Assembly (NCBI RefSeq): GCF_019649055.1
Contig: NW_026570271.1
Span: 248,001-312,000, forward strand
Length of the DNA: 64,000 nucleotides
From: Paramacrobiotus metropolitanus
Taxonomy: Eukaryota; Tardigrada; Eutardigrada; Parachela; Macrobiotidae
Direction: 5' to 3'
This document shows, piece after piece, positions 4,102-38,050 of this stretch. The first letter of the stretch is position 1. Every line of letters begins with the position of its first letter. The notes beneath the pieces were generated by a model, which saw only the letters and a program-made list of their open reading frames with translations, ran no database searches and was not told where the DNA came from. The position numbers and the translations under genes were made by a program.

Positions 4102-4480
4102 ATGCGACATACTGTGATTAACCGTGCTCTGGCCAAGAACCAGAAAATTTCTGTTAGCCGAGAAAGCAAGATGCAATACTTAGCTGCTTTGATGAAGGCC
4201 ATAGTGGGAAGTACATCCGGGATAAGTTCGTCATCACGTTGGCGACTTTTCATAGGATTCTGCAACAGCACGGAAAAACGTTTCAGCAACGCGCCCTAAA
4301 AATCAAAGAAAAGCGGGACGTGGCCGTTCTGAAACTGCGTGCTGAAGGACTGGAAGCCATAGCAAAGCAGGTAAAAATAAACATTGGCACGGTAAGCAGA
4401 ATTCTAAAACAAAACTGGGACAAGGAGTCAAGCGCACCGGATGGACCACGCTGCATAGGGCGTCCCCCGAACTGGATTCA
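4102..4480 (+). pseudogene. HTH-array family relic (HTH4 and HTH5 only)
   Basis: Translation gives pieces of the last two HTH units of the family best seen at 36953-38050 (-). One piece contains ISVSRESK, another FDEGHSGKYI and then HRILQQHGKTFQ, and a third AVLKLRAEGLEAIAKQVKIN, GTVSRILKQNWD and the spacer IGRPPNW. These match VSREKTQEILDY, FEKGYSGLYI, LQQNGKTFQ and AVLNLYAKGL in the intact paralogue. The fragments fall in at least two frames with no start or first three HTH units, so this is a truncated, frame-broken copy. Downstream frames to about 4737 are not recognised. Confidence 0.7.
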
Positions 4481-4599
4481 AATAATGTCGCTGCCGTTGT
4501 CAGTCTTTAACTACTGGCGCAAACATTGGCCAAAAACCGAAACCTACAAATATGCATCATTTGCAAGTTGCAGGAACTTCCGGAGGTTGCCGACTTGAA

Positions 4600-7110
4600 A
4601 CGGGTGATCTACATGGAAGTACGATCACACAGCCACCTACAGTTACTGAAAGGACAGCTGCTGTGTATTTGCCGCTGCCACACAACGCCACACACTCATT
4701 GATGAGTAAGCATACGTACGGAAACGTGCAGTTTTAACGTGTATAAAAGCATGCAATGATAACATCAGAAAGATTCGTACTTTGGACTTTATTTGCTTGC
4801 ACATTACTGGAACTTGCGAAAACCAAACTTCCCAGACATAACATATCCCTCGTCAAAAAGTTTGTTCTAAACTGTATCAACATACCTGAAATGTTAAGCC
4901 GTTTATCATAAAATGTGCCGACGGCATGATTTTGGCAGCAGATCTTATGTAATGATTTATATCAATACGAAAACGTATCGAAGTTACAAAATTTATTCGA
5001 AACTCGTACCCGCTTCTTCGCAACTGTTTAGCCAAAACGTTAAACAGAAGCAAACGCAAAACAAGAAAAACAAAAGAACAAAAGCTTTGTTGGTCGACCG
5101 TCATGTAAGTAAACAATATCTCGCTTAGCAGGAAACAATTCCAGAAAAATAAAAAAAATAAACCAGCCAAATTCCAAGATCAGCACTACGACCGCCCATG
5201 TTAATTGCCAGCAGTCCCGACACCGTCGCGGTTCTGGTTCATTGCAAATAAAAATGTAAGATATTGCAGCCAAAGCGAAAGCTTTGTCGGTCGACCGACA
5301 TTAATCGCCTCGCCTCGCCACATAACCTAAAAAGCGATTTTGATCCATGTGTCGCCGTTATAGATCATCATAGCTTTTCTGCAGAACCTTGTTAAGTAAT
5401 CAGTTATCAAAGGCATAGTTTCTGTGCAAGGACATGATCGGTCGACCGACAAGAATTATCTTCAAAAGCAAAAATCGCAAAAAAGAAGCAAAAGTTCTTC
5501 GAAACAAAAAAACAAACTGCTCCAGTTTACCTAGTTGGAGGCAAAACGTTAACGATAAAATACCTGACACTGCCCACGCGGTGGCTGCATTACTTTTGCT
5601 GCCGACTACGCTCACTGTAGGAAACTTTCATGCTGCTCCTGATTGGCTGCATGGCAGTTTCAGTGCCCACCGCAAGTTCACGTTCAGAGCCGTTGCGCCC
5701 AAGCTGATTTTGACAGCCAGTTTTGGTAATGGCAATTTTCGACTTTTTATCTGTGCTTTTGAAATGGTTTCTGGTATTTTGTTGAATCATTGACGTTTTG
5801 TTTTATGACATCGACAGCCAAATTTATTTCAAAACATTTAAAAAACACTGCTAGTGTTGATATTTATACGTGACAGTGATTTATGCGTGGCACTGTCACG
5901 CACGGCATGCTTATGGATAAAAGTGCAACATTCGACACAGTCTGCAGTGATGCGAGGACCCACAGCAATTTCGGATAAGTTCTAGGGTAAGAGCTTGTCG
6001 AAAAGTTCCCGATTTAAACGTCATAAACTATCACGTGTCGAATTATTGTGTGCGTTTTTATTTCCAGATCCTTGGGAGGCTGTGCTTGGACAAATGTGCA
6101 TGAGGACATGCAGTAAAGCAACAGGTAATGCAACTGTGTAGTAGAGCGCTATTTTCAGCTACCAAACGATAAAACGAATTTCGATTCAAAAAAATATTAG
6201 TCGTTTTTGTTACCTTAAACATAGGAAGCGAGCAGAAACTAGATTTTTTACTAAAGAAGTTTTCCTTAGGTATTTTAAAGTGCAGAAGGGACAAGTTTAA
6301 GGTATTAAAATTTGAGTTGATTTAAGCCTTTTTTATTGCCTATTTGCATGTCGACATGCATATGTCTTTCTTATCGCTTATTTGCATTTCGACATGCCTG
6401 TTTCAAAAGTGGCAGTCGGTGCGTAATTGGTGGTGCGTATATGAAGTGTCCATAACTTGTTTATGCCATTTTTCTGATTCTTTTTCAAATTATAAATTTT
6501 TAAAAAATAATAAATCAATTTAATGTGTTGTTGCTGCATTGTCCTGACCATTGCAGTTTACTCTAAAACAATACAGGATGTTTATGTCAAAGTGTCGATT
6601 TTTCCATTCGCTTTATTTATTGGCCAAATGCTCCGTTAACAAAAACAAAAATTTTTAATTTAAGATTTTTTGTTTGAAAACTGCATGTCGACATGCTCAG
6701 CAATTTTGTTGCTGGTGCATTAAAAGTTCTAACAGGCAGCGCTTTTCTATAACGAATGACCGTCCTTGAATGCAGTAGATCTGGAATGCAGCATCTGTTG
6801 CGTTCAAGTAAAACTTGAATGCAAATGTTGTGCATCTGAAAATATCATATTGTAAGTAAGATAACCATGCTGATGGTTCAAAATTTATATGTTCTGCAGG
6901 GCAGATGAAGTATTGCTCTCTAGGTCCCTTGCCAAACGCGAATTCACCGGGAAGTGCGTGGATGTCGACATCCATGATTGTCCTTGCCATCGTGGCGATG
7001 ATTAACTTGTTATGCATTTAGTAGTCGCTAATGCTATCCATGCTGGCTCTTTTGCAATTTCTATCGCCCTTATCGATTTTTTTACTTAATTATCTTGGTG
7101 TTTTCATGAG
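4600..7110. other. No gene recognised; scattered palindromes
   Basis: No supported coding sequence. Palindromic GGTCGACC sites at about 5093, 5288 and 5440 share context (AAAGCTTTGT before two of them, CGACAT or CGTCAT after). The palindrome GCATGTCGACATGC or close variants occur near 6347 and 6684. A TATAAAAG lies near 4742 but I see no exon that it would serve. Confidence 0.45.
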
Positions 7111-7116
7111 AAAGTA

Positions 7117-8605
7117 CAATGGACGACAAAAAGAGGTTGAACCGACCGGTCGGCTCACGGTCCAAAAATTTAATGATAAAATCAACAAAAACTGTGCAAC
7201 AGGAAACACATCGAATGCGCAGAAATAAATAATCGTAGACCCTTACAGTAAAACTTTATCACCGTATGTACACCAAATCACAGTATCCTGACTCTCAGTA
7301 CTTGCTACGTGCGCCCCCGTTGTATAAGCACGCATTGAGGCGACTGCCCATAGAATCTGCCAGTTCTTTACAATATTCTGCAGTGCACACATCTTCCCAG
7401 GCCAATTTAATAAACGAATCTAAGTCGCTCAGGTTTTTGGGGAGCTGCTTGGCGATGTTGTCTTTCATTCGGCCCCATAAGTTTTCGATGGGATTAAGGT
7501 CCGGGGATTTCGCTGGCCAAGGCATGACGTTGAGTCCTTCGGTGGTGAAGAATTTCGACATGGCGTTCGATTTGTGACAGGGCGCATTATCTTGCTGAAA
7601 GATAATGTCACGGCCATTTTCGTCCAGGTAAGGCAGCAGCTCGTCGAAAAGGACCTGTTCGTACCTTTCGGAATTCATGGTTCCTTGGAATCGAACCAGC
7701 GCAACTGGACCAGCAGCGCATATCGCCCCCCATACAGCTATTCCGCCTTTGTTCTGGCGGGATTGTTTGACTTGGAGATTGTTGGAAAATCGATCCTCTC
7801 CACGTTGCAACCAAATCTGTTTGTAAGCGTAGAATGTGGGTTTAGAGTGTAGCCATAAAACTGTCCTGCAGTAATACGTTTGTTCGCCCCTTGACACCTA
7901 CCTCGACTCGCCCCCCGCACAACTTGAATGTACACTCGTCAGAAAATATGACAGAGTGGAAGAAGGCGGGATCCTCCAGCAGCTGTTCCCGTTTCCAAAG
8001 ACACCAGTAGATGCGGTCGTCTTTGTGCTTTTGCGTCAGTTCGTCAGCAACCGCTTTACTCCTGCGGAATCCATAATCTTGCAGTCTTCGAAGGAGAGTT
8101 CGGTGAGGAATCTGCAGAGCGGCTGCTGCCTTCACGCCACTTAAGGTACGGTTTTCTTTAAGGAATTCTATAGCATATTCGTCTTGCGCTTGAGTTGTTT
8201 TTTTTCGGCCTTCCTTGCTTTTTCTTGTCTTTGCGCTCGCCAGTTTCTTCGTCGAAGTTGCGCAACTACGTGCGCCCATGCGTGCGATTTTCTAAAACCG
8301 CGCCGACTTTTTTCGTTGCGCTCTTTTTTATATAATCTGAACACTGCTTTCGCTACTTCTGCATCAATAAATTTACCGCTAACCATTTTGAGAACAAAAC
8401 GAGACAAGAATACGCGAAACAAACAAAAACAAGAAACGAAACGGAAGCGGATACGGAAACGTGATACACAAAACATGAATATTGGCCGTAAAAATATTGC
8501 AGTGGCCGCCGGCCAGCGCCAGTTTGTTTTGAACAGAGAAACGCTTGGCTGCGCCATATGCGTTAAACCGAGCCGATCGGTTCAACCTCTTTTTGTCGTA
8601 CATTG
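7117..8605 (-). mobile_element. Tc1/mariner transposon, complete ends
   Basis: A 1489-bp element bounded by TA at 7115-7116 and 8606-8607. The inverted ends share about 30 bp: left CAATGGACGACAAAAAGAGG and right the complement of CAATGTACGACAAAAAGAGG, each followed inward by TTGAACCGA. It encodes one transposase on the minus strand (7295-8386), which is no longer in one frame. Length, TA duplication and a DD34E triad place it in the Tc1 group. Confidence 0.92.
7295..8386 (-). pseudogene. Tc1-type transposase, frame-broken
   Basis: Cut-and-paste transposase that would bind the element's inverted ends and move it into TA sites. The N-terminus starts at an ATG (MVSGKFIDAEVAKAVFRLYK). A helix-turn-helix-like stretch (TLSGVKAAAALQIPHRTLLR) follows. 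The first catalytic Asp lies in FSDECTF, the second in FQQDNAPCH and the Glu in SPDLNPIENLWG; 34 residues separate the second Asp and the Glu, as in Tc1 (DD34E). The C-terminus ends in GGARSKY. The coding sequence changes frame at least twice (about 8250-8300 and 7740-7860), so the copy is inactive, although catalytic motifs and ends are intact. Decay therefore appears moderate. Confidence 0.9.
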
Positions 8606-9031: not shown

Positions 9032-9202
9032 CAGTGAAACCTTTACACACCGGTAAATACATACACCTGGAAATTATATACGCGGAAAGTTTAACTGGCT
9101 CGTCCCATAGACTGTAATATAGCTCTGTGTAATACATACACCTGGATAACGCATACGGTTTTTTGTTTAACCGAAGGTGTATTTAGTAACCAGGTTTCAC
9201 TG
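9032..9202. mobile_element. pogo/Tc1-like MITE, copy 2
   Basis: A 171-bp element flanked by TA (9030-9031 and 9203-9204), with the same ends and interior as 3805-3979 apart from a few substitutions and small indels. Two near-identical copies 5 kb apart suggest fairly recent activity of this family. Confidence 0.85.
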
Positions 9203-10170: not shown

Positions 10171-11729
10171 ATGGCCAAGATATCGGGGGTCACGATCGAT
10201 CGCGTTCGCGCTGTTCTCACGCCTGGACAACTATGTCCGCAGAATGATACACCAACAACATCCAGTGCTTCTACGTTCCAACCAACTGGGAATGTGCAAT
10301 ATCCGTACGGCCCAGCATCCCACCGCGAACGGGCAGCCGAGGTACCACACCATGGTGGTTTTCCGGGTGACACATGCAAATAGGGGTGGACGAGCAACAA
10401 AAACGACTGATTTACGAATTACACGAAGGCGGCCGCACATGGTAGCAGAGCGCGGGACACCTTGGTATCAAAATGAAAGCACTCCTCATAATTATTCAGA
10501 CAGAACAGTTGTCTGGACAAAGCTTCACACTGACCGAAAGTCAGAAAAACGAAATCCAACAGCTAGTGCGGAATAGAGAACTTAGTCTAACAGAACAGCG
10601 AAGCGGTTAGAGGTTAGCGCGAAGACCGTGGAAAAGTATCGGCGAATGCACTGACAGGTGCTCAGAAGAAAAAGATCCTCAAACTGTATACGATTGGGGC
10701 TGCACCAAAACCGATATTATGCAGGAGGTTCAGCTAAATAAAGTGGTTGTAGCGTCTGTAATTTCCCTTTGCCTAGCCCTGCGAAAGGCGCTCCCAGTTA
10801 GCCAAAGACAGAAGGAAGAAATTCTTGACTACTATAAAGAAGGTCACGGTAGACAGTTGATTCAGGAGATGTTCGGAATCTCAAAAAAAACTTTCAATTT
10901 TTTTTGCAACAAAATGGGAGACTTTCCAACAAAAAAGCAAAATTCTGCAAAGAAAACCGACCAACCGACCAGATGGATATTCCTCCAGAAACGCCCGCAG
11001 AACAATAAGTTGCGCAAGGGAGCGGCTGTTCAAAAACTGCGGACTGAAGGACTGACAATGGTTGCCATAGCGAAACAGTTGAAGATGAAAGTCAATACAG
11101 TGAGCAGCATTCTGAGACAAAACTGGAACGAAGAATCGATCGAGCGAGTTCGGCTTTCTCTGAGTAGTGAGTCATCTGAAGCGGAATGTTCCGACGCAGA
11201 AACTTCTTATCCAGAAACTTCCGATACAGAAACTTCTGAAGATTCTGTTATGGAAACGTCGGTGCTGAAACCGTCTATGCACAGACTTCCGATTCAGAAA
11301 GTTCAGATGCAGAAACAGATACTTCTGATGCAAAAACTTCGGATGCACAGAATTCCGATTCAGAAACTTGCGATGGTGAACCTTCCGATAATAAAACTTC
11401 CGTTGGCGAAACTGCCGAACCAGAAACTTGCGATGCAAGCGTTTCCAGTGGTAGATTTCGCGATGCGGAAACTACAGAATCAGAAACCGAAGCATCCGAT
11501 ACTTCGACAGAAAATTCAGATGCAGAAGGTTCCGATGCAAAATCTTACAAAACGAAACGCTTCGATGCAGACGCTTCCGAAGCGGAAACAGAAGAATCCG
11601 ATGCAGAAATTTCCGATACAGAAACGTCCGAATCAATACGTTCCATTGCGAAACCCTTCGACGCAGAAACGTTCAGTGCTTTTGCGTCCACTTCGCCGCA
11701 TTGTCGTATTAAACTGTCCGCGGGACTGA
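10171..11729 (+). pseudogene. HTH-array gene, decayed duplicate
   Basis: Collinear with the intact gene at 20195-22048. It begins MAKISGVTIDRVRAVLTPGQ, matching the N-terminal module there. It continues through RLIYELHEGGR (HTH1), a degraded HTH2, and DIMQEVQLNKVVVASVIS (HTH3). Then come VSQRQKEEILDYYKEGH (HTH4) and KLRTEGLTMVAIAKQLKM with SILRQNWNEE (HTH5). A DNA repeat follows that in the intact gene encodes the acidic tail. The reading frame changes around 10383, has in-frame stops before 10719, and shifts again in the tail near 11270, so no continuous protein is made. Read with 12296-13364, this is one half of a duplicated two-gene block whose better-preserved copy is at 20195-23604. Confidence 0.8.
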
Positions 11730-12295
11730 ATAACCACTTCCCTGCCTAGCTTAGCGGTATGAGCACTCTTTTCTCTCAAACTGGTACAGTAAAGTAACTT
11801 GGAGGAATGACGGAGATACGAACACAGAGATACAGGAACCAGGAATCCTATCAGGAACCCTGCGAAACACGAACACACGAACGAATGCCTTACTTCTCAC
11901 TCCCGGTCTCCGGATTGCGAGGATCAGACAAGGGCGAAGGTCAATTGTGACACGAGCATACTGTGTAGTATCACAAAGGATCTGACGTGGATCCTGAACA
12001 TCAAGATATCCGTTAGAACATGATGTCCCTTTAATCCAATTCACAACGCATTCCTCAACACATGGAAGTTAGAAATAAGAAAGTCTCAAGATCAGTAGTC
12101 GTAAGACTGATGCCGATATTAGGAACAACATGAGAATTTATAGGCTAGAAACAGCAGCACCATACGCGTTGCAAGGATTAGAGAACAGCAAATCAAACAC
12201 GAGAGATAGGACTAGATAAGGACAACAGCAGTGATGTAGGAGAAGGCGTACAGGTAAACAGTAAGTTAAACGAATCAGTACGTACTATCCACTCC

Positions 12296-13364
12296 TCCCC
12301 ACGTCAGCATCATCTTGACATAGCGAACAATGGAACGCCCACCGTACCAATTGTTAGTAGGACCATCACTTTTCCAGACCAACCGATTATGATGCGCAAG
12401 AACTGGCAACCAATTGGATTTGCAGCCAGTACCCAGAACTGTTATCCGCGCCTTTCGCAAGAGGGGCGTTAGATATATTAGCTTCTCCCAGGGGACGCAC
12501 CGCCCCCACAGAAGAATGTTCACTAGACACCGCAAGCGAACGGCATGGCACAATGGCTTCCAGTGGCTTCTGTCATATCTGGAACTTTGTGACCGCTCTT
12601 CAGGACGGTCACAAAATGAGCCGTCTATTGGGCCGACCATTAGTACGTCCGCTGCTGTACCAAACCAACCGCCCGATAACGGAATCGCAAGACATGGATG
12701 CGGACCGCGACAACATTCAGTATCAAGAACTGGAATCTGTCATTCTGAAAATGCGCGAACAAGGGTATTCTTATGACGCAGTGGTGACTGCTTCATGTCC
12801 GAAGCTACTCCCTTCAAAGATGCCAGCAGAGTTGCCGAACGGTTGGACATCGGCTGCAGAGAACTTAATAAGGTTGGTCGACCGTTTAATGTAAGTTAGT
12901 CCACGGGGACTACATTTTTGAACGTTAATAGAAATCCGTAAACAGGTTTATTTACGAACATATTGCTATTACCAAGCAAGGTACTCTATATTCTTAGGCT
13001 GAAATTTCGACTACAGAGTACTACGCGTAGCCCAACGGCAAACCCATTATGCCAGGGTGAAGGTGAGGACGGCGCTCATACCGAGCCGCCCAGATCCGGT
13101 TCTGATATCGTTCAGGCACCGTTCCATGCATTCCTTAGATCCGAGCAGATGCCAAATCAAAATTGACAGCAGCGTGATATGATATTAGAAAGCGAACCTT
13201 CAACAAGCGCCGAAATTGAACAGGGGGCTCCCAGTCCATCGCTCACTGGTACTAGTTGTAATGCTGATGCGCTTTCCCTTATTCAAACAGATTCATCAGC
13301 AGAAACGGAGGAAATTCTTCCCATTGGCAGCTGCCGCAATAGCAAACGCCAAAAAGGTAACTAA
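12296..13364 (+). pseudogene. Decayed duplicate of the tandem partner gene
   Basis: Collinear with 22530-23604. Matches include WLLSYLELCDRSSGR against WLLSYLEPCDQSSGR, SQNEPSIGPT against PHNEPSIAPT, and VILKMREQGYSYDAV against TVLKPREEGCYYEAV. A second exon-like block reads GSGSD-type sequence (RSGSDIVQAPFHAFLRSEQM against GSGSDANPIPLHAFPSLEQI) and ESEPSTSAE. The blocks lie in different frames and the first is shifted near 12700. A GTAAGT donor occurs at about 12892 where the relative has GTACCC. I infer a pseudogene; the protein family has no known function. Confidence 0.65.
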
Positions 13365-15818: not shown

Positions 15819-16760
15819 ATGGATGAGGAGAAAAGGCGGCTTGTTTGTGCATTGCACAAAAGTGGCATCGAATGGGGGCAAATTAGGAAACGCGTGGGCG
15901 TCGACAGCCAAACACTGCGAAATATTATCAAAACAGAAAAATTGTCTGAGAAACGCACCCAACTGACTGATGACCAGAGAAACGAGATCGCACAACTGGC
16001 ATGCGAAGGGAATCGAAGTACGGCAGAAATTGCGAAACAGTTCAACATTCGCCCGGGAAGCGTGTGTCGAATTCGGAAAAAGTACGTACTCAAGTCGGGC
16101 ATCCCTGAAACGACTGGTAAGAAAATTCTGCAGCGGAAGGAGAAGGTTTTCCCGGGACGCCCCCCAAAACTTCGTGAGAGTTTGCAGACGGCTGTTCTGA
16201 AACTCCGTGCTGAGGGATTGACAGCGGAGGCCATAGCTAAACAAGTGAAAGTAAGTGTCCACACGATGTACAAATGGCTGAAACGAATTCGGGACCTTGA
16301 ATCGAGGATGTCGAATGGGCCACTGAGCATGATACCTCCCGAATCGGCTTGGAATGATGCTACGGAAGACCAAACCGCACAGAAGCCGGTAGTTGAGGAC
16401 GACAACAATAGTAACACGGTACCTGAGCGGCGGAGGTCGGCTCGGTTAATCGCCATGCACCAAGGATCTCCGGGCTGCAGTTCCCACCTGTTCGATGATT
16501 CCGATTGCTACAGTGCCGCCGAATATCTGCCCGATGGCAGATCCTCAGCGAAAGATTCATGTGCATACAGCGCTGCAGAAGGTCCTGTTGTGCTAGAGAA
16601 TTTGGATGCTTCAAAACGTTATTCCGGGGAAAGGTCTACCATCGCGGTGCATTATGAAGGTGGGGTACACTTCAAAAGTCTGCTCTATAGAAAGTCTGCA
16701 TATACATGTACTGGACTGGCCAGGGCCATATCACTGGTTCACATCCACGTATTCGCGTAG
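15819..16760 (+). CDS. HTH-array protein with three HTH units
   Basis: A 313-residue open frame from ATG at 15819. HTH1 is at residues 2-40 (EEKRRLVCALHKSGIEWGQI), HTH2 at 47-88 (QRNEIAQL, AEIAKQFNI, SVCRIRKK) and HTH5-type at about 123-158 (AVLKLRAEGLTAEAIAKQVK). Between HTH2 and the last unit is a basic linker with PGRPPK, a weak AT-hook-like core. The units corresponding to HTH3 and HTH4 of the five-unit paralogues are absent, so this member is internally shorter. The C-terminal 150 residues are Ser- and acid-rich, with a basic RRRSARLI near 205-212. No catalytic domain is visible. Role inferred: sequence-specific DNA binding in the nucleus. It lies alone on this strand; the intact frame suggests function or recent origin. 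Whether it is spliced further is unknown. Confidence 0.75.
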   Translation: MDEEKRRLVCALHKSGIEWGQIRKRVGVDSQTLRNIIKTEKLSEKRTQLTDDQRNEIAQLACEGNRSTAEIAKQFNIRPGSVCRIRKKYVLKSGIPETTGKKILQRKEKVFPGRPPKLRESLQTAVLKLRAEGLTAEAIAKQVKVSVHTMYKWLKRIRDLESRMSNGPLSMIPPESAWNDATEDQTAQKPVVEDDNNSNTVPERRRSARLIAMHQGSPGCSSHLFDDSDCYSAAEYLPDGRSSAKDSCAYSAAEGPVVLENLDASKRYSGERSTIAVHYEGGVHFKSLLYRKSAYTCTGLARAISLVHIHVFA

Positions 16761-18501: not shown

Positions 18502-19002
18502 ATGAGCAATTCAAAGCCTCAAAAAAATAAGCCATTACATGAGGAGAGGAGACGGCTGATTTGTGAGTTACACAAAGGCCCCTACACACTGCGGCAGATA
18601 ATAAAACGCGTAGGCATCACCGATCACGCACTCAAAAAAGTGGTCAAAACAGAAAACCTGCCCAGCCGACGCACGCAGCTGACTGAAAGCCAGAGAAAAG
18701 AGATCCTACAGCTAGTACGCAAAGGCGGTCAAAGTGCGGCAGAAATTGGGAAGCAGTTCGGCATTACCGCGAAAACTGTGAATATTATTCGGCAAAAGGC
18801 CACCGCGCTGGTCACGCAAGAGCAGAAGAAAACGATCCTCCAAATGTTCCATCGCGGCTGCTCGAGAACGGATATTATGCGTGAGGTTAATGTGGACGGC
18901 GATGTGGCATATGCAGTATTTCTGCCGTCGAACCATGCACATACTGTTCACGGAGTACGAAGATTCATACGGAACACCAATCTTCGGGAATTTAATTTAT
19001 GA
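18502..19002 (+). CDS. HTH-array protein with three N-terminal HTH units
   Basis: 166 residues from ATG at 18502; the frame is open upstream to 18427 but without another ATG. HTH1 is at residues 14-52 (EERRRLICELHKGPYTLRQI), HTH2 at 60-98 (QRKEILQLVRKG, AEIGKQFGITAKTV) and HTH3 at 104-142 (QKKTILQMFHRGCSRTDIMR). It matches the first half of the five-HTH proteins at 20195-22048 and 36953-38050, then diverges after VDGDVAYAVF into about 25 unrelated residues and stops. HTH4, HTH5 and the acidic tail are missing. Either the gene continues by splicing or this is a truncated copy. Likely DNA-binding; no enzymatic motif. Confidence 0.65.
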   Translation: MSNSKPQKNKPLHEERRRLICELHKGPYTLRQIIKRVGITDHALKKVVKTENLPSRRTQLTESQRKEILQLVRKGGQSAAEIGKQFGITAKTVNIIRQKATALVTQEQKKTILQMFHRGCSRTDIMREVNVDGDVAYAVFLPSNHAHTVHGVRRFIRNTNLREFNL

Positions 19003-20194: not shown

Positions 20195-22048
20195 ATGGTC
20201 AAGATATCGGGACTCACGATGGATCGGGTCCGCGCTATTCTCACGCCTGGACAGCGCTGTCAACGGGATGATATACTACCAACATCCAGTGCTTCTGCGT
20301 GCCAACCAATTGAGACTGTGCAAGATCAGTGTGGCCCAGTGTCCCTCCGCCAACGGGCAGCCGAGGTTCCAGACCATGGATATTCTCCGGGCCAACACAA
20401 GCAAAGCGGGGTGGACAAACAACAAAGGCGGCTGATCTACGAATTACACAAAGGTGGTTGCACATGGCGGCAGATCGCGGGACACCTGGGCATGAAAATG
20501 AAAGAAATCCTCAAAATTATCCAGACAGCAAAGCTGCCTCGACAAAGCACCGCACTGTCTGAGTTTCAGAAAAACGAGATCAAACAGGTAGCGCGGAATG
20601 GAGAAGTCAGTCCAACAGAAACAGCGAAGTGGTCTGCGATGAGGGTGAAGACCCATGAGAAGTATCGGCGAATGGCCGTGACTGATGCGCAGGAGAAAAA
20701 GATCATCCAACTGTACGATTGGGGCTGCTCCAGAACCGATATTATGCAGGAGGTTCAGCTAAGTAAAGCGGTTGTAGCGGCTGTAATTTCCCGTTGTCTA
20801 GCCCGGCGAAAGCCGCTACCAGTTAGCCAAAGACAGAAGGAAGAAATTCTTGATTATTATAAAGAAGGTCATTGTGGCCAATTCATTCAAGAGATGTTCG
20901 GGATCTCAGAAAAAACGTTCAGTTTGATTCTTCAACAAAATGACAAACTTTCAAGCAAAAGACCAACATTGGGCAACAAAATGGGAAAGTTCCAACCGAC
21001 CAGAAGGAAATCCCTACAGAAACGTCCCCAGAACAGTAACTGGAAGAGGCGAGCGGCTGTTCAAAAACTTCGAATTGAGGGAATGACAATGGTTGCCATA
21101 GCGAAACAGCTGAAGATAAGCGTGGATACGGTGAGCAGCATTCTTCGAAAAAATTGGAACGAAGGAACGACCGCCCGAGATGGGCATTCGTTGAGCAGGG
21201 AGGCATCTGACGCAGAATTTTCCGATGCCGCAACTACTGATGCAGAAACTTCCGACACAGAGATCTGTGATATAGTAATTTCCGATGCGGAAATGTCGAA
21301 TGCGGAAACGTCCAATGCACGGAATTCCAATTTAGAAACTTACGACGGTGAAATTTCCGATGGTGAAACGTCGGATGGGGAAGCTTCCGATACAGAAACG
21401 GAAACATCCCATGCAAAAACGTGCGATGCAAGGACTTCCGATGCAAAAGATTTTAATGGCAAAGTTTGCGATGCTGAAACTGTAGAATCAGAAAGCGAAG
21501 CATCCAATACAGAAAGTTCAGATGCAGAAACTTGCGATTCAAGAACTCCCTGTACAGATCGTTGCAGAGCAGAAACTTCTGAAGTAGAAACAGAAGCATC
21601 TGATGCCGAATCAAAAACTTCCGATGAAGAAATTTCCGACGCAGAAACGTCCGATGCGAAACCTTCCAATGCGAAGCCTTGCGATTTCGAAAAAGAAACT
21701 TTCCAAGCAGATATAGAAGCAACCGATGCCGAGAAGTCCGATGTAGAAACAGAGGCTTCCGATACGGGAAATTCCGATGCAGACCCAGAAACTTATGAAG
21801 CAGAAACAGAAGCATCCGATACAGAAACAGAAGCTTACGATGCAGAAACTTGTGACATTGAAACGAGTGGTGTTGACGAACTTGATTTGATCTTCCAGCA
21901 TTCTGAAGTTATTGCTGACGCTGGTTACGGAAATGCTTTTACGAATTCCCGCGACGAACAAGGCATAATTAATTCACCATCCGTTTTACATGGAGCCGTA
22001 GACGGGGTAATGAACCGGGACTGCGGGGAAAGCCAAGCCGGTACGTAG
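20195..22048 (+). CDS. Five-HTH array protein with acidic repeat tail
   Basis: 617 residues from the ATG at 20195, chosen because ATATTTTTCAG at 20161-20171 looks like a splice acceptor just upstream and because the next gene starts the same way. Residues 1-19 (MVKISGLTMDRVRAILTPG) form a module shared with the genes at 10171 and 22395. HTH units lie at about 74-112 (QQRRLIYELHKGGCTWRQI), 120-160, 161-201 (CSRTDIMQEVQLSKAVVAAV), 210-249 (QRQKEEILDYYKEGH) and 283-321 (MTMVAIAKQLKISVDTVSSI). A basic linker (RRKSLQKRP) precedes the last. Residues about 338-600 are an acidic tail of degenerate DAETS pentapeptides encoded by a 15-bp repeat. No nuclease or ATPase motif is seen. I infer a nuclear DNA-binding protein whose tail may recruit or mimic charged partners. 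GGTACGTA close to the stop might be a donor, so the true C-terminus may differ. Confidence 0.8.
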   Translation: MVKISGLTMDRVRAILTPGQRCQRDDILPTSSASACQPIETVQDQCGPVSLRQRAAEVPDHGYSPGQHKQSGVDKQQRRLIYELHKGGCTWRQIAGHLGMKMKEILKIIQTAKLPRQSTALSEFQKNEIKQVARNGEVSPTETAKWSAMRVKTHEKYRRMAVTDAQEKKIIQLYDWGCSRTDIMQEVQLSKAVVAAVISRCLARRKPLPVSQRQKEEILDYYKEGHCGQFIQEMFGISEKTFSLILQQNDKLSSKRPTLGNKMGKFQPTRRKSLQKRPQNSNWKRRAAVQKLRIEGMTMVAIAKQLKISVDTVSSILRKNWNEGTTARDGHSLSREASDAEFSDAATTDAETSDTEICDIVISDAEMSNAETSNARNSNLETYDGEISDGETSDGEASDTETETSHAKTCDARTSDAKDFNGKVCDAETVESESEASNTESSDAETCDSRTPCTDRCRAETSEVETEASDAESKTSDEEISDAETSDAKPSNAKPCDFEKETFQADIEATDAEKSDVETEASDTGNSDADPETYEAETEASDTETEAYDAETCDIETSGVDELDLIFQHSEVIADAGYGNAFTNSRDEQGIINSPSVLHGAVDGVMNRDCGESQAGT

Positions 22049-22394
22049 GCCAGTTATCCGATGTTATGGTACCAATTGAACTGTACAACGTACACTCGGC
22101 GAATACATCGTGCGGAAAAGAGTACGCGACCTTTGTTGTGCTGCAGCATAATTTATAATATGTGCACACTTACGGTTGTATAAAGCCCTAGTTAACTTAA
22201 AAACATGCAGCTTTTCTGTATCTCTGCTAATTTAACTGTGCGTGATACTTTTACGCTCACATACTCAAGGCGGTTTCATAAGTTGACGGCCGCGGTTTGC
22301 CCGTGGTCAGCAGTTACTACAGGCTAACCAGAATGCTGGCGGCAGGGTTAAATTTCTTTTATGGCTTTCAGGCGGAGACTCTTACCTTGCCCAC

Positions 22395-23096
22395 ATGGTC
22401 AAGAAAAAGGGATTAACGGTTGATCGTGTCCGCGCTAGTCTCACGCCTGGACGCCGACCTCCGCAGGACGATCCTCTAACAACATCCGCTGCTCTTGCAG
22501 TCACTCTGCCACATGATCATAACGTAGCGAGCAGTAAACCGTCCACCGTACCAATCGTCAACACGTGCACCATTGTCCCACACCACACAATTACAAAAAC
22601 GGCTACCGATTGGATTTGCAGCCAGTACCCGGAACTGTCAACCCCGCCGGTCGTTAGAGGTGCGCCGGATATTGTTACTCTTCCATGTAGACGCATTCCT
22701 CCCACAGAGCAATTTTCGCTAGACACCGTAAGTGAACGGCAAAGCACAATGGACTTCCAATGGCTTTTGTCGTACCTCGAACCCTGTGACCAATCTTCGG
22801 GACGTCCACATAACGAGCCGTCCATTGCGCCGACCACTAGTGCGTCCCCTACTCCACGAAACCGTCCGACTACAGAATCGCAAGAAATGGATGAGGACCG
22901 AGACAATAGCACGGGCCAAGACCCGGAATCAACGGTTCTGAAACCGCGCGAGGAAGGATGCTATTATGAAGCGGTGGCGCAGAATATCAGTGCTAGCTTC
23001 CTGTCCGAAGCCACTTCTTTGGGATATGTCGAACGGCCAGACAATAGCAGGAAAGACCTTCCTCATGTTGGCCGGACGTTTTTATGTACCCTGTAA
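22395..23096 (+). CDS. Tandem partner sharing the MVK-LTPG N-terminal module
   Basis: 233 codons from ATG at 22395, 346 bases after the stop of the five-HTH gene and on the same strand. It starts MVKKKGLTVDRVRASLTPGR, the same module as that gene, and is also preceded by a TTTCAG acceptor (GGCTTTCAGGCGGAGAC). The middle is Ser/Thr/Pro-rich with no domain I recognise. Near the C-terminus, TVLKPREEGCYYEAVAQ resembles the start of HTH5 (AVLKLRAEGLTAEAIAKQ), suggesting a partial HTH. The decayed duplicate at 12296-13364 carries the same order. The last codons lie in sequence that is a GTAAGT donor in that duplicate, so the 3' end here is uncertain and an exon at 23383-23604 may follow. Confidence 0.6.
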   Translation: MVKKKGLTVDRVRASLTPGRRPPQDDPLTTSAALAVTLPHDHNVASSKPSTVPIVNTCTIVPHHTITKTATDWICSQYPELSTPPVVRGAPDIVTLPCRRIPPTEQFSLDTVSERQSTMDFQWLLSYLEPCDQSSGRPHNEPSIAPTTSASPTPRNRPTTESQEMDEDRDNSTGQDPESTVLKPREEGCYYEAVAQNISASFLSEATSLGYVERPDNSRKDLPHVGRTFLCTL

Positions 23097-23382
23097 ATTA
23101 TTTTCGAACGCCCTTAGAGATCCGCAGTCTTAATCACAATAGAATGCCAGGTAAGATTTTCTTTTTTCTGCCCATTTTTCAACACCTTCAAAACATTTTC
23201 GTTGAGAACACTTACTTTTCCTTAATACACTTCACACTTACTTTGGTTCGTAGTTTATAACACTGTACTTTAACTTATTTTGCGTAGACTTAACTTTACG
23301 TAGACTAAAACTCCTCGTTCTGTATGTAGTCAATTCTGACAAACTTTTGCACTTTGCCGTACCTTTATATTCTTTAACTCAG

Positions 23383-23604
23383 CCTTCTGGTGCATCACGC
23401 AATCTTGGCACATCCATTACATCGGCAAACGCATTATTCCAGGTTGAAGCGGAAGATGTTACTGATACCGAGCAGCATGGATCCGGTTCTGACGCCAATC
23501 CGATACCGCTCCATGCGTTTCCCAGCCTCGAGCAAATATCAGTGGAAAACTGCCAGCAGCTCAAGACATTAGAAAGCGAGACTTCAACAAGCGCTGAAAG
23601 TTAG
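23383..23604 (+). CDS. Probable downstream exon of the tandem partner gene
   Basis: The frame opens after TTTAACTCAG, a good acceptor, and runs PSGASRNLGTSITSANALFQ to a stop after SETSTSAES. Its decayed duplicate at about 13035-13220 preserves this frame (ANPLCQGEGEDGAHTE; FHAFLRSEQM; ESEPSTSAE) with several synonymous-looking differences, which supports coding in the past. Acidic and Ser-rich; no known domain. A donor that would join the exon ending near 23090 in phase was not found. Confidence 0.45.
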   Translation, partial: PSGASRNLGTSITSANALFQVEAEDVTDTEQHGSGSDANPIPLHAFPSLEQISVENCQQLKTLESETSTSAES

Positions 23605-24303
23605 AAGGAGGCATTTTGAAAGTGAAAAACGGAAAAGCATATAATGACGATTTTGTGGCACCGGGCAACCGGCTATGCAGGATAATATTTCTCCTTTGTC
23701 AACAACTGAATGGCAAAAACCAGAAAAGGTTGCGGCATGTTTTCGTGACAGTTCCACAGAAGACACAGCTCAAAATTAGCCGCTATCGCCGAGCTCTCAA
23801 ACTAACACTGTCATGGCAAAATTTTAGTGTCATAATTATATGCTGTTGTCTGCCTCTAAACGAAGAGGATTTGATGTTGTCGGAACTAAGGAACATCGTT
23901 TTCTTGCATCGAGGATGTGCTCCTGCGGTACACGGGATACACTTTCAAAAGTCGGCAACCTATTAAACTGGGCAGTTATACTGTTACGAGCCTGTCACGG
24001 GATATTGCACAAGGCTGCATTACGCACCCAGCCGCAGCGGGTTATTTTAGCATTGCGGTGCCTGCAGACAACTGCAGAGTGCTTGTTGCCCAAGCGATTG
24101 CTCAGTATTACTTTGCGCTAATATCCTTTAAAAGCATTTTGTACTTTCTCAGCAGCTTTGATATTATGTATCCACGATTCAATTGCAAGAAATAGTTTAT
24201 CTGTACAGCATTTCATGCATTTTCGTATTGAACAGATTAGCTTTCCATCCGTAAGTGGAAAGGTTTTCGTCGTTCACCTCGAGCAGTGACGGAGAAAAAA
24301 GAT
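23605..24303. other. No gene recognised
   Basis: Mixed-composition DNA between the HTH gene pair and the foldback element. Short overlapping frames on the plus strand have no recognisable domain. Confidence 0.4.
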
Positions 24304-27124: not shown

Positions 27125-27300
27125 CGAAGTGGCTATTTTGCCGCAGTGTTTGCGGCTAAATAGCCGTTCGGCTATTTTGCCGCACTAGGGTGGGCGAAAT
27201 AGTTTGTTGGCTATTTTACCGCACACTGCGTTAAAATAGCTGCTCGCTATTTTGCTGCACTATGGTTGGCAAAATAGTCAGTTGGCTATTTTGCCACACC
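27125..27300. repeat. GGCTATTTTGCCGCA repeat family, copy 2
   Basis: Six or more direct and inverted units of GGCTATTTTGCCGCA and its complement in 175 bp, alternating with ACTAGGGTGGGCGAAATAG-type units. See 17880-18000 and 33945-34115. Confidence 0.75.
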
Positions 27301-27679: not shown

Positions 27680-30600
27680 TAAGGCTTCATCCGAGCAAAG
27701 CCCGTAGGTTCACCTCCGACCACCAGGTTACTCCGCGTGAGGATCCCAATAACAGCCGGCATCTCAGGCTACATATCCAGTCCGGTAAGAAATCGTGATT
27801 ACTTAAAATCACTGGCTTCCTGGACCTATATGGGGTATTCTCGGTTGATCCAAGTCTAGGTCGATTCTTCCGGGGCTTTTTGGCTTGTGTCAGGTCCAAG
27901 CTCTACCTTCCGGGGTTCTTCGCTCGTACCGTACGAATACCGTTTCTATAACGGTCAGTGTGACCGAAGCATATTGGGTCAAGGTCCCGTTAACAGCTAG
28001 TATGCTACGTATGGTTAGTCTAATCCGATCCTTACGAGTCGACTATATCGTTTCTCTGTTATGAACATCCTCCTTGGTGATGGAAGATGAAAACTGTCGT
28101 TCTGCCGGGACAAATAAGGAGGTATCTCTTCCGGAGTAATCCCGGTCCGGAAAAATAATTCTCGTTCGACCATCAGTCAAGAAATGTCCAGGTAATACAT
28201 CTACCTGTATACCTCTAAGCCGGATTTGTGGTCACTGTGAGAACTAGGCAGTTTTGTTCAATTATCTCGTTCGGCGGAAACTGCGGTGACGTTTCGTAGG
28301 GTGACAGGTATAAAATCTGTATGTGCCGGGTCGTTTGGGTTAGGTAGTAGGTTGTGGTTGGATGCGATCTGCGGCGAATTAAGTTCACTACGTCCCCATC
28401 TGGGGATGCGTTAAATTGACATAACAAAAAATTCGATGAGGTTCGTCTTAGTTCTTAGTAGGCTGTCGTCATGTCTGTTTACCGGTTTGCTGTTAGCTTT
28501 GTTCTTATTGACATCGGTCACATCACGGTTCGCCTGTGGTACCCTCAGTAAGCTAGTGGTAAGCTCGGAGTCCGTATGATGTCTGGGTCTCCGACGCAGG
28601 CTTCGAAGTCCTGGGAAACCAAGAGGACGCGCTGTTATTTGACTGGGTGGCATAGTGGTGTCAAACTAATCTACTGGCGATGGTGTCCTCCGCTTCCGGG
28701 GTCCCGACGGCTCGAAAATCCGGAATGTTTGCGGATTTTTTGCCGTCGGCGGCCTATGCCGTCGATTTCGGCTTCGCGCCGACTGTGAGGTTCCAAACCG
28801 GGTTGTTTTGATCGCTGTTGAGTCACTCTTCCCTGATAATCTAGTTATCGAGATTACCCTGTTTAACCGGTAATCTCGTGGTTCTTGTCGGGAAAACCGC
28901 GATTTTGACAGGGTTTTGGTGGGGTGCTGTCCAGGTTTTAGATACACCGATAATGAATTCGGGAACGGCACAGCCGGGAACGGCACAGCCGGGAACGGCA
29001 CAGCCGGAACGGCACAGCCGGGAACGGCACAGCCGGGAACGGCACAGCCGGGAACGGCACAGCCGGGAACGGCACAGCCGGGAACGGCACAGCCGGGAAC
29101 GGCACAGCCGGGAACGGCACAGCCGGGAACGGCACAGCCGGAACGGCATACGGGAACGGCACAGCCGGGAACGGCACAGCCGGAACGGCACAGCCGGGAA
29201 CGGCACAGCCGGGAACGGCACAGCCGAACGGCACAGCCGGGAACGGCATACGGGAACGGCACAGCCGGAACGGCACAGCCGGGAACGGCATGCCGGGAAC
29301 GGCACAGCCGGGAACGGCACAGCCGGAACGGCACAGCCGGGAACGGCACAGCCGGGAACGGCTGAACGGCATAGCCGGGAACGGCACAGCCGGGAACGGC
29401 ACAGCCGGGAACGGCACAGCCGGGAACGGCACAGCCGGGAACGGCACAGCCGGGAACGGCACAGCCGGGAACGGCACAGCCGGGAACGGCACAGCCGGGA
29501 ACGGCACAGCCGGGAACGGCATTACGGGAACGGCACAGCCGGGAACGGCACAGCCGGGAACGGCATAGCCGGAACGGCATAGCCGGGAACGGCACAGCCG
29601 GGAACGGCACAGCCGGGAACGGCACAGCCGGGAACGGCACAGCCGGGAACGGCATAGCCGGGAACGGCACAGCCGGGAACGGCACAGCCGGGAACGGCAC
29701 AGCCGGGAACGGCACAGCCGGGAACGGCACAGCCGGGAACGGCACAGCCGGGAACGGCACAGCCGGGAACGGCAGCCGGGAACGGCATAGCCGGAACGGC
29801 ACAGCCGAACGGCACAGCGGGAACGGCACAGCCGAAGCACGACACGCCGACGATCTTCCTGCAGTATCCGAGCGGTTCCATTTTAAGTTGTTCTTCTCAC
29901 CAAACTTCTTTCTTTGGGCTGAGCGAGGTCAAGGCTCCAGTATCCAGCGTCGCCACTGTCGGTGTCGTTCCGATCACAATTTCGTGTGTCCAAGCGGGCA
30001 CTCTAACCGGTCGACGCTGCTCGATCGGGCTGATATAGACACCGAACGCATAAGCGTGTTCAACAGTAACAACGACACATTGGCCGGGATCGTCACACGC
30101 TAGCGGTGATCCATTGAACCTGCCGATCCGGCTGGCGTTGCCGCTATTCGATTAATGCGAGTTTCTTCTATCGGTCACATGGTCATCGTCAATATCGATC
30201 GCGGGTCTCGCCATTGATCCTCCTCCGCCGCTTTGCAAGCTCGGACACAAACCAACAACTGGTCTGCAGCGTCCAAATTAAAACGGTCGGGAATCTCAGT
30301 TCGGTCGGATAAGTATGCTGCTCACCCGTGCTATCCAATGCGACCTTTGCAGCAGTCGATGCTGGTCGTTCGAGGCGAGTTGGGCCCATTACGGCTTGCG
30401 CCGTACACCAAACGTACCGGCGGTTGGTTCCGATGGAATTAAGTCACTCGTCACCACGGCAATTCGGGTCGGTTTACCGCGAGGTCAGTTTCTCCATCCC
30501 GGCAGGCTGGTAAACTTGCCCAGTATACGGGAGCGCTTGATTTTCCAGGCTGCAGTATCGGCTGCTGCTGCTGTTAATAAACAAGGGCACCCGCGTCCCG

Positions 30601-33600: not shown

Positions 33601-33944
33601 TTAAATTTAAAACATTTCTGTACTGTTTTACTTTTTATTTTGCGCTTTTCTGGTGTAGCATTTCATTGTGGATCTGAATATGCAAAAATTTGAAATGTTG
33701 TTGATGGAATAATAAGCAGCCAACAAGGATAAACAAGGCTTATAACTGACCTTCTAGAAATTTCCAAGTGACATTTTTTTCATGGACATTTTATATACTG
33801 TTGACTGAGTGTTGAGTGGTCTTTAAGGTATGTGGTATGGGTCAGCAAAAGCTTTTTCGTGGTTGGTGCTCGCGGTGACCCGGAGAGAAAGGTGCACCTC
33901 CCATAGGCTTGTACGCTTATCCCTTATTATAATTATCCTCCTCC

Positions 33945-34115
33945 GTCCATAGCGGCAAAATAGCTAACGAACTGTTTTAGCGCAGTGCGGTAATAATAAC
34001 AAGCTATTTCGCCCACCATAGTGCGGCAAATAGCCAACTGGCTATTCCGGCGCAGTGTGCGGCAATAGCCTGAGGGCTATTCAGACCCCTATTGTTATAC
34101 TCGCGCAAAATAGCC
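33945..34115. repeat. GGCTATTTTGCCGCA repeat family, copy 3
   Basis: Degenerate units of GCGGCAAAATAGC and its complement, including GCGGCAAATAGCCAACTGGC that can form a hairpin. It lies at the right edge of the GC-rich block. Confidence 0.65.
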
Positions 34116-34502
34116 ATAGCCAATAATAATCCTTCACGGACTTATTCCATGCAATTTGCGCGGGTCTGCTAGTAACACTGTACTACACCCCGCACTTGTC
34201 CAGACTTTGTAATGGTTTGAGCCTACTGCACTGTAAGTTGAGTGAGCTAAAGATGCTCACGTTCAGTCAGCTGCCTGCTCTCTGCACGCAGCTGCAGGCC
34301 GTGTATGTGAATTGTGAATGGGCTCATACAACGTACGTGGGCCTGCACTGCAAAATAAATGGACAAGTGCAGGGTAGCAGTACAGTATATAATACAGTAC
34401 TACCATTACAAAACCCAAATTCTAGAATCTTTAAATATAGAGACCATTCTAGATTTGCGCACACCATACCAGATTCAAACACATAAATGTTTGAAAAGTC
34501 TC

Positions 34503-35995
34503 CGTTATTAAAAATAAATTCTCGTGTCTATATCCTCGTTAAGTCTCTGCTTTCGGCTTATGTTCGGTCAAAACATCAAAATTCATTGGGGCATTAAATA
34601 CGGCTGTAACTATATGTATAGAGACAGTTATTTCTGTAAGCCGCCCATAAAGGGCGATTTTTTCGCCAGCATGTGTCGCTTGAATTCTAACGGGACAACG
34701 CCGTTTCCGTACTCGAAACCAACTGTCGATCATTTCGGCCGTTTCCATTTCGATTCTGCTCCTTTCGGTCATTGCTCATGTCGACCGGCACTAACCTCAG
34801 CTAAATATATTTCTCTGTGGACATTCCAACCAAAGTTCAACTTTTGTTGGGTACAACACAAAAACTTTCACAAGAGTTTCACAAGTAAAAACTGGATTGA
34901 ACAACTGATCATCGTTCGATGACTTTTCATGCTACCAAGACGACACAAAAACTGATTACCTATGTATCGCAAACTACAAAGGTTTTATCAGCAGCAGTAT
35001 TATGTCAAAAACACAATGGAAGAGCAAAAAAGATATAAAACGGCAAGCGCTTCAGCTGCAGTATGTGCCCTATCATCATTGCTTTAATTAACGATGGAAT
35101 GCATAAAGCCGCTGTGCTCAACCTCCCCTGACTAACACGTAACACTAATGTGCAGGCCCACTGCACACTCTGTGCAATGTGGGAAAGTCTCCTTTGCCAG
35201 TAGCAGACGATGCTCCTGACCAGTCAAATGAGACAAAAACAGATCCTCGTCGTCCGATGACACGCGACACAGATGGCACTGGTATTTCATTTTGACCGTG
35301 TTGGTTTCGTTCGTCGTGCGTTGTTTCCTTGATAATGCCGCACGTCAAGATAATCAGCGAACGAAGGACAACGATATCTTGCACCAGGGAAAGCAAGAAC
35401 TTCTGCAAAAAAACCAAATCGGTCTTCAGAACAGTATGTAGCAAAAATGCTCAATTTCAGGAGCTGCCGGAACCACTTAGCAGTTTATAATACTTTAATC
35501 TCGAAAGTAAAACCGCGCGGAATATCTTAAAACACCTTAATTGATTTTTCCTGCTGCGGCACTCGTCCAGCTTACCAGTTAGCTGAAGCCCCGCTTCTGC
35601 TGATATATATACCTTCGGAAGCTAAAAAAATTAATTTTGCGCTGCAGTTACGAAAACTATTCCGGTATGTAGCACTGCATTCATGTAAATTACGGGAAAG
35701 TTCGCTTTGGCGTACCTGCAAATTTTTTACATTGCTTCAGAGTTCAGTGTATTCTATAGCGCTTTCTATACACTGGTGTGAAAACCGTATGTCTGCGTAG
35801 CCTCTGTTTTAGGATACAAAAGGTAAACTTGCATTCTAAAAGATCTGAATGCATAAGTAAATTTTCTTACAATTTTTGAAACCATATCGAATTTGTGGCA
35901 CCCCCTCCCCCGCACCCCCGTAATAAACACAAATAATCTCTTACTTTGAAAAATAACGGCACGCCACGAAATTGCCGCACAAGATGCCGTCAGTG
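34503..35995. repeat. Duplicated segment, copy 2 (pair at 1456-3100)
   Basis: Collinear with 1456-3100 from CCGTTATTAAAAAT to GCACAAGATGCCGT, with substitutions and indels throughout. It retains the zinc-finger exon in a better state than copy 1. Both copies keep the same orientation relative to this window. Confidence 0.75.
35132..35290 (-). CDS. C2H2-like zinc-finger exon, copy 2
   Basis: From ATG at 35290 the frame reads MKYQCHLCRVSSDDEDLFLS, HLTGQEHRLLL, then FPHCTECAVGLHISVTC and a stop: 52 residues. The first unit has C-x2-C-x12-H-x5-H with all four ligands, and the second starts CxxC followed by His. It aligns with 2082-2300 (-) and with the longer paralogue at 53588-54022 (-), which has YQCEICCFSSDEGEAFLLHL and then HCTGCPF. 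The upstream part of the family (the LPPNN-type stretch) is out of frame or missing here, so the copy may be an exon of a spliced gene or a remnant. Zinc binding is inferred from the motif; target unknown. Confidence 0.5.
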   Translation of the reverse strand: MKYQCHLCRVSSDDEDLFLSHLTGQEHRLLLAKETFPHCTECAVGLHISVTC

Positions 35996-36039
35996 TTAAG
36001 CGCAGTAAAATATGGAATAACCACGATATAATCATGTAG

Positions 36040-36950: not shown

Positions 36951-36952
36951 GC

Positions 36953-38050
36953 TTAACTTACGCCAGTCAGCTGAATCGTCTCTTTGGGATTTCCGCTAGA
37001 TACCTTTATCGGAGTGGCGACGCACGAGTCCTTAGAACATATATATTCACTAAGCTCTCCTTCGATGTTGCCTCCGGATAGAACATTCGCTGTGGTGTTG
37101 TACTCGTGGTCGTAGGCCAGTGTGGAGGTATTATTACAACCGAAACGTCCAACAACATTAGCGCCAGGTTCCTTTCGTTGCGCTGTTTTTAACCGAGATG
37201 ACCTTTGGCACTCACGTACTCTGTTATTACCGCCGTTCTCATTCGTTCGTGGTATTTCTGTTACCAGGCCTTCCTGCAAACCATCCGATGCCAACACGGG
37301 CTTGCCGGCAGATTCTGTGTTCTTCAATAAACATCCATCCGGCGTGATAGACTTCTGGCCAACGGTTTTCAGCATTTGTTTTACCTTTCTGTAGTCCATT
37401 TTGAGTTCCCTCGCTATGGCATTCTTTGAGAGTCCCTTGGCGTAAAGGTTCAGAACAGCATCTCGGCTCAGCTGTTGGTTTTTCCGAAAGCGCTCTTGGA
37501 AGGTCTTCCCATTTTGTTGTAATAATATTTTAAGGGAGAATTTCGACAGACCAAATTTTTTACTAATGTACAATCCACTATAGCCTTTTTCGAAGTAGTC
37601 AAGTATTTCTTGTGTTTTCTCCCGACTGACAGATAACGTATCTCGCAAGGCAAAACTTTGTCCGCTTTGGCCAACTATAGCGCTAACGATATGCCCATCT
37701 ACTTTGGCTTCCTGGCTTATATCCGCCATTGAGTGGCCTCCCTCGAACATTTGGAGAATGGCTTTTCTTTGCTCTTTCGTAACGCCGTCCATTCGCAGAA
37801 TTCGGCTCACGGCCGACACGCTAATCTTCAGCTGCTTCGCAATTTGTGCTAGACTGTACTCTCCTGTGCGTGCTAGCTGCATAATCGCATTTTTTTGCTT
37901 CACCGCCGACTTGTTTCGAAGAGGTAATTTTTCTTTTTGAATAAAATGCATCACCGAACCCAATGTAACACCCAGGCGTTTCGCGATTTGCTGCCGAGTG
38001 TAGCCGCCTTGACGCAGTTCGCAAATCAGCCGTCTTTTTTCCTCATCCAT
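36953..38050 (-). CDS. Five-HTH array protein, minus strand
   Basis: 365 residues from ATG at 38050 (MDEEKRRLICELRQGGYTRQ). HTH units lie at about 2-38, 47-86 (AQIAKQLKISVSAVSRIL), 90-127 (EQRKAILQMFEGGHSMADI), 142-180 (SREKTQEILDYFEKGYSGLY) and 194-230 (SRDAVLNLYAKGLSKNAIA). HTH1 opens like that of the protein at 15819 (MDEEKRRLV) and HTH4 matches the relic at 4102. It lacks the MVK-LTPG module and the DAETS tail of the member at 20195; residues 235-365 are Ser/Asn-rich with GGNNRVRECQRSSRL. No catalytic motif is visible. The stop falls just inside a good donor (ACTGGC then GTAAGT), so the last three residues are probably intron and the gene continues downstream. Inferred nuclear DNA-binding protein; the most compact five-unit member. 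Confidence 0.8.
   Translation of the reverse strand: MDEEKRRLICELRQGGYTRQQIAKRLGVTLGSVMHFIQKEKLPLRNKSAVKQKNAIMQLARTGEYSLAQIAKQLKISVSAVSRILRMDGVTKEQRKAILQMFEGGHSMADISQEAKVDGHIVSAIVGQSGQSFALRDTLSVSREKTQEILDYFEKGYSGLYISKKFGLSKFSLKILLQQNGKTFQERFRKNQQLSRDAVLNLYAKGLSKNAIARELKMDYRKVKQMLKTVGQKSITPDGCLLKNTESAGKPVLASDGLQEGLVTEIPRTNENGGNNRVRECQRSSRLKTAQRKEPGANVVGRFGCNNTSTLAYDHEYNTTANVLSGGNIEGELSEYICSKDSCVATPIKVSSGNPKETIQLTGVS

Follow-up and report, generated by a model that had tools for sequence, protein, structure and literature searches.

A stretch of 64,000 nucleotides of the tardigrade Paramacrobiotus metropolitanus (contig NW_026570271.1, positions 248,001 to 312,000; hereafter the window, whose own numbering is used throughout) harbors a family of genes encoding arrays of helix-turn-helix (HTH) units of five types, u1 to u5. 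Two of these genes have an open frame with all five unit types. The gene at 36953-38050 (minus strand) encodes u1-u5 at residues 1-233, followed by a tail of about 130 residues that is predicted to be disordered. The gene at 20195-22048 (plus strand) encodes a 72-residue N-terminal part, u1-u5 at 20411-21160 and an acidic tail, which is S/T/D/E-rich with a 15-nt period and contains 83 acidic and 72 Ser/Thr residues among 295. A TTTTCAG acceptor-like site lies directly upstream of its start; such sites are not enriched in the window (20 versus 16.4 expected, with at least 20 in 18 of 100 shuffles). Shorter arrays are encoded on the plus strand by two further open frames. The frame at 15819-16760 carries u1, u2, helix 3 of u4, u5 and a tail, with u2 passing straight into the last helix of u4, an arrangement that, by its sequence, looks like an internal deletion. 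Its tail and that of 36953 are weakly similar near R-S-x-R-L (E 0.002, short-query blastp of five tails). The short frame at 18502-19002 carries u1-u3; u4 or u5 was not found in the next 1.25 kb, where one weak u3-like match was obtained (E 0.024). By chance, the window would hold about 2e-4 open frames of 365 codons and 2e-9 of 617 codons, and for each of the array frames of 365, 617 and 313 codons the expectation is at most 0.003. The 166 codons of the 18502 frame are unremarkable in length, with 2.5 such frames expected by chance in the window.

Two members on the plus strand are broken. A u4-u5 fragment lies at 4102-4595 (units at 4158-4421), and its reading frame, as judged by eye, shifts where u4 begins. 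The locus at 10171-11729 is a degenerate tandem copy of 20195-22048, from which it lies 10,024 bases or so away, with 72-76% nucleotide identity, several frameshifts and a stop in u1. Differences between these two arrays are spread near-evenly over the codon positions (0.18, 0.14 and 0.21), and the block duplicated between 10171-13228 and 20195-23612 consists of three aligned pieces. Beyond the range first given for the family, two minus-strand open frames were found, one with u4-u5 and a tail (57903-58601) and one with u4-u5 (60392-60862). The tail of the former (57906-58265, minus strand) contains the stretch IIDIITIDEED, which we take to resemble a SUMO-interacting motif. The latter is overlapped in another reading frame by a 268-codon open frame (60489-61295, minus strand), which may be an upstream exon or a frameshift product.

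The original prediction, made from the sequence alone, had placed five alignable HTH types in fixed order at six or more loci (4102, 10171, 15819, 18502, 20195 and 36953). The units and their order were recovered, as the alignment of u1-u5 takes in 22 HTH units from seven loci in one common order, but 10171 and 4102 proved to be broken. Among the proposed layouts, 1-5, 1-3 and 4-5 were found as described, whereas 15819 retains helix 3 of u4 and is not simply 1-2-5. Tandem duplication and unit loss bear out the proposed local gain and loss of units in part; with two of the six named loci broken, decay explains some of the differences in unit count. To locate the units, per-type profiles were run over all six frames of the window, with stops set to X. 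Units of 36953, 20195, 18502, 15819 and 4102 scored 64-92 bits against the profile of their own type, values that are partly circular since the profiles were built from those very units, and the reversed-window control gave at most 6.3 bits. The frames at 57903 and 60392 had been seen before this run and were then added to the unit profiles. The broken 10171 copy is absent from the profiles; its best pieces scored 62, 25, 41, 55 and 59 bits for u1-u5. Used as single-sequence phmmer queries, the five units of 36953 recovered other loci with whole-frame E-values down to 3e-13.

The separation of the types is less clean. With u2 of 36953 as phmmer query, u5 of 20195 (14.6 bits) scored above u2 of 20195 (8.4 bits), and with u5 of 36953, u4 of 60392 (8.4 bits) scored above u5 of 60392 (5.0 bits). 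In a maximum-likelihood tree of the 22 units, all u1 units formed one group (support 99/96), three u4 units were grouped at 97/94, and u5 of 57903 was joined to u5 of 60392 at 95/90. Groups of u2, u3 and the remaining u5 units were weaker, u2 and u5 of 36953 were placed outside the groups of their own type, and three of 19 inner branches were well supported. The unit profiles are all mutually alike, u4-u5 and u3-u4 being the closest pairs. A reconstruction of the order of the unit duplications was tried and dropped, as support in the unit tree was too poor. As far as sequence comparison goes, the existence of five types in a fixed order has good backing from alignment and profiles, and less from the tree and the single queries.

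The fold of both intact members was predicted with AlphaFold2. For 36953 an alignment of eight window proteins was used; the model of 20195 covers 20195-21235 and was obtained from a seven-row alignment with 20195 first, which has members in common with the former. As the original prediction would have it, each model contains five tri-helical HTH units. In the 36953 model the helices lie within residues 3-40, 47-88, 92-128, 143-179 and 184-233, of the first 23 blocks of ten residues, 20 have a mean predicted local distance difference test (pLDDT) score of 81-95, and the tail comes out disordered. In the 20195 model the units lie at residues 75-112, 123-160, 164-204, 212-253 and 280-328, with a pLDDT of at least 80 in 19 of the 26 ten-residue blocks of residues 71-330. 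Both chains are thus predicted to hold several tri-helical units, as expected of multi-HTH proteins; the placement of the units relative to each other is unreliable in both models (predicted template modelling scores 0.32 and 0.37). In Foldseek searches against the PDB neither model reached E <=0.001. Weak matches of the 36953 model included a designed repeat protein, PAX6, SelB, Pax5, Mos1 and Tc3, and those of the 20195 model included Reb1, a designed repeat protein, SNAPc, SelB, Tc3, PAX6 and SETMAR. Twelve viral models (BFVD) matched at E <=0.001, mostly unnamed or uncharacterised phage proteins, with one named HTH psq-type and one endonuclease among them.

Kin of the units were also sought by sequence. 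The best solved-sequence match of a profile of all 22 units was 8vd6 (8.6e-16), probably a designed repeat protein. Among natural solved sequences, the PAI subdomain of Sleeping Beauty came first (8.6e-8), ahead of IS5376 transposase and Tn3 resolvase. In architecture the arrays differ from ordinary transposases, as claimed, but the natural solved sequence nearest to their units is that of a Tc1-type transposase HTH. Over the 22 units, Pfam families HTH_23 and HTH_7 each matched eight, HTH_28, HTH_38 and HTH_SB six each, and CENP-B_N five. A Pfam scan was also made of ten open frames, for which all matches were listed except at 36953 (best 25 of 53) and 15819 (best 25 of 27). In the whole array proteins HTH_SB stayed under its curated cut-off of 43 bits. 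PAX stayed under 22 bits in 20195 (15.4 bits) and 15819 (17.6 bits) and was not among the best 25 matches of 36953, and TnsD stayed under 32.4 bits (24.4, 26.4 and 16.7 bits). HTH_psq was not among the best 25 of 29 Pfam families over the units, nor among the matches listed for the proteins. PHROG 323 (D5-like regulators) aligned to residues 55-216 of 36953 (1.8e-11), but a search of 50,697 phage records with an E-value limit of 1 yielded no sequence relative of the array. A pattern search with the 36953 protein gave six matching stretches in viral contigs and 69 in prokaryotic genome contigs, and none was confirmed as a relative.

The absence of a catalytic part, also claimed originally, was supported: among the Pfam matches listed for the array proteins no catalytic family was above its curated cut-off, and no DDE match was found in the 10 neighboring open frames tested. 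Two transposase genes lie elsewhere in the window and, together with its long minisatellites, give it a eukaryotic look. A Tc1-type transposase at 7298-8581 (minus strand) is broken over several frames, with DDE_3 matched in 7298-7897 (8.2e-21), and its DDE frame matches bacterial IS630-type records at low identity only. An origin of the arrays from this element was considered and dropped, since its N-terminal frames were not significant against the unit profile. A second transposase at 45168-46749 (plus strand; DDE_Tnp_4 3.2e-26 in 45952-46749) is of the Harbinger type. In tblastn searches the frames of both elements matched only themselves at E <0.05. Inverted repeats flanking an array were not detected in a self-comparison of the window, which would miss short or diverged ones.

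The ratio of nonsynonymous to synonymous differences per site (pN/pS) was determined between loci. Among seven loci, including 4102, which is frameshifted, and 60392, which is possibly broken, 18 of 21 pairs overlap. Their pN/pS lies between 0.36 and 0.78, a rough ratio because synonymous change is saturated or nearly so in many pairs. The bootstrap upper limit was below 1 in 16 of the 18 pairs and reached 1 in two. These values point to a family history under weak purifying selection. Six presumed DNA-facing columns of helix 3, which were picked from general HTH geometry after the identity profile had been viewed and without model coordinates, showed a mean within-type identity of 15%, whereas a further 19 columns presumed to lie on the surface averaged 36% (permutation p 0.001). 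The pN was 0.64 at these columns and 0.38 elsewhere. Furthermore, 13 of the 14 copies of u1, u2 and u5 carry a net basic charge.

Taken together, we consider it somewhat probable that the window holds a family of nuclear HTH arrays of the Tc1/paired type, expanded by local duplication, that bind DNA and read long composite sites. DNA binding is suggested by the fold, the charge and the kinship of the units; the nuclear location, the composite sites, the function of the tails and the origin from a Tc1-type transposase HTH are inferred as well. Each protein would string together, on short linkers, two to five tri-helical units of the Sleeping Beauty PAI (paired-like) kind and would lack a catalytic domain, and most members would end in a disordered tail. 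The third helix of each unit would sit in the major groove, so that a five-unit member would extend along the DNA and recognise a single long composite site, in much the way that Reb1 and SNAPc do with their Myb-type units. Divergence is greatest where helix 3 presumably faces the DNA, which would give the paralogues different targets. Partner proteins would be recruited by the tails, of which that of 20195 is acidic, so the members would most likely be repressors, activators or chromatin markers. A further-reaching idea, which we regard as rather unlikely, is that these are young modular DNA readers, Tc1-type HTH arrays that gain and lose whole units through duplication and deletion at the locus and diversify the DNA-facing residues of their recognition helices, perhaps aimed at repeats or transposons of their own genome; expanding zinc-finger families follow a comparable logic.

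Several known systems resemble the arrays in part. Tc1/mariner transposases such as Sleeping Beauty and Tc3, as well as the PAX paired domain, likewise carry tri-helical HTHs in series, and Tc3 (1u78) and PAX6 (6pax) were weak fold matches to the models. Tc1/mariner transposases and PAX have two HTHs, and the former carry a DDE core, whereas the arrays have up to five HTHs and no DDE match in the frames tested. Reb1 and SNAPc place several tri-helical Myb-type units of one chain on a long site and ranked first and third among the fold matches of 20195 (Foldseek E 0.03-0.11). However, their Myb/SANT family is not among the Pfam matches listed here, the units matching HTH_23, HTH_7 and HTH_SB instead. 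Pipsqueak has four tandem Psq HTHs, and proteins of the Pipsqueak and CENP-B types bind DNA through transposase-like HTHs. CENP-B_N matched five of the 22 units, as given above, but neither a BTB nor a DDE domain is among the Pfam matches listed for the arrays. Array-like proteins are also found among phage multi-HTH proteins (D5-like PHROG 323 and the BFVD models). To our knowledge, animal proteins that read DNA through tandem HTHs carry two to four units. Among the open-licence papers listed for multi-HTH, tandem or transposase-derived HTH families, none was seen to describe five paired-like units in a eukaryotic family; tandem HTH proteins are a known kind, and the five-unit family without a catalytic part looks like a new version of it. 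If the interpretation is correct, the members would offer a natural set in which to study the reading of long sites by HTH arrays, and another case of transposase-like parts in proteins that are no longer transposases. Precedents exist on either side. In favor of DNA binding, the transposase-derived proteins of the fission yeast Cbp1 family, which have N-terminal tandem HTHs, bind and repress the long terminal repeats of retrotransposons (PMC10085805).

A number of observations weigh against composite-site DNA readers of Tc1 descent. All PDB fold matches of the models have E >0.02 and low TM-scores, and SelB and many sigma-factor chains are among them; as a single query against PDB sequences, the 36953 protein gave nothing better than E 0.11. 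The top Pfam matches belong to families of a generic HTH kind (HTH_23, resolvase HTH_7 and sigma-70 region 4) and HTH_SB stays under its cut-off, so that a Tc1 origin is not proved. The helix-3 columns are synonymously saturated (pS 0.74, pN/pS 0.85) and their divergence may stem from relaxation. Since relaxation looks alike and the columns were chosen post hoc, this divergence is a lead and no proof of diversifying selection. In addition, u3 is neutral or slightly acidic in all three copies, and one of five u4 and one of six u5 copies are net acidic. Finally, the Tc1/mariner HTH captured by a nematode family, the F-box A2 proteins of Caenorhabditis, gave no sign of DNA binding in the assays performed, and a role in binding proteins was suggested for it (PMC12062965). 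This precedent, the lack of basic charge in u3 and the poor conservation of the recognition helices would fit host proteins that use their HTH units mainly as protein-interaction modules, as argued for the F-box A2 proteins. Such a role appears improbable in view of the basic u1, u2 and u5 and of the short-linker tandem layout, which is that of the DNA readers Reb1 and SNAPc, both among the weak fold matches. Moreover, F-box A2 has one HTH together with F-box and FTH domains, neither of which is among the Pfam matches listed for the arrays.

The chief rival, that the arrays are decaying remains of multi-HTH DNA-binding proteins, one or several, from a mobile element, with frames still open owing to recent age and with no present host function, is possible but doubtful. 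It would account for the two broken loci among the six named ones, for the apparent truncation of 18502, whose length is within chance, and for the apparent internal deletion of 15819; the broken Tc1-type and the Harbinger-type transposase lie in the same region, and pN/pS is only moderately below 1, with an upper limit that reaches 1 in two pairs. On the other hand, three array frames are far longer than expected by chance, the upper limit stays below 1 in the other 16 pairs, and the self-comparison, from which short or diverged copies would escape, revealed no inverted repeats bracketing an array. Another proposal regards the arrays as the DNA-binding part of an unrecognised transposase or of a TnsD-like target selector, with the catalytic partner beyond the window or in another exon. 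TnsD of Tn7, a multi-HTH protein that locates one attachment site, has multiple C-terminal HTH domains (PMC10293859), and Pfam TnsD was matched weakly, under its curated cut-off, in 36953 (1.8e-5) and 20195 (4.3e-6). The DDE test covered 10 neighboring frames out of 172 frames of at least 70 residues in the array-bearing stretches, a count that includes the arrays themselves and frames covered by other Pfam scans. Nevertheless, TnsD is prokaryotic and has a TniQ-type core, and neither a TniQ nor a DDE family is among the Pfam matches listed for the array proteins. Together with the lack of a DDE match in the 10 frames and the finding that the Tc1 and Harbinger frames matched only themselves at E <0.05, this makes the proposal very improbable.

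Two further loci are related to the 20195 gene. An open frame at 22395-23096 (plus strand) encodes a 20195-like N-terminal part (MVKxxGLTxDRVRAxLTPG), and the stretch directly upstream is also common to 20195; farther along, a stretch resembles, by eye, the start of u5. At 12308-12784 (plus strand) lies a frameshifted tandem counterpart of 22512-22977 with a weak u5 match at 12715-12780 (11.9 bits compared with 2.8 bits in the reversed-window u5 control). No tRNA was found in the window, and no Rfam match reached the gathering threshold. A second duplicated block (1457-3098 and 34502-35990; 78-81% identical, 33 kb apart) contains short frames akin to the Cys/His-rich frame of 53591-54214, with nothing matched in Pfam at an E-value limit of 0.01. 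A 39-bp tandem repeat occurs at 27130-27299 and, in inverted orientation about 7 kb away, at 33947-34070. The GC-rich minisatellite at 28960-29834 consists of about 60 copies of a 15-bp unit and is open in several frames, and the minisatellites at 51956-52390 and 52527-52790, with 28-bp-type units, are inverted copies of each other.

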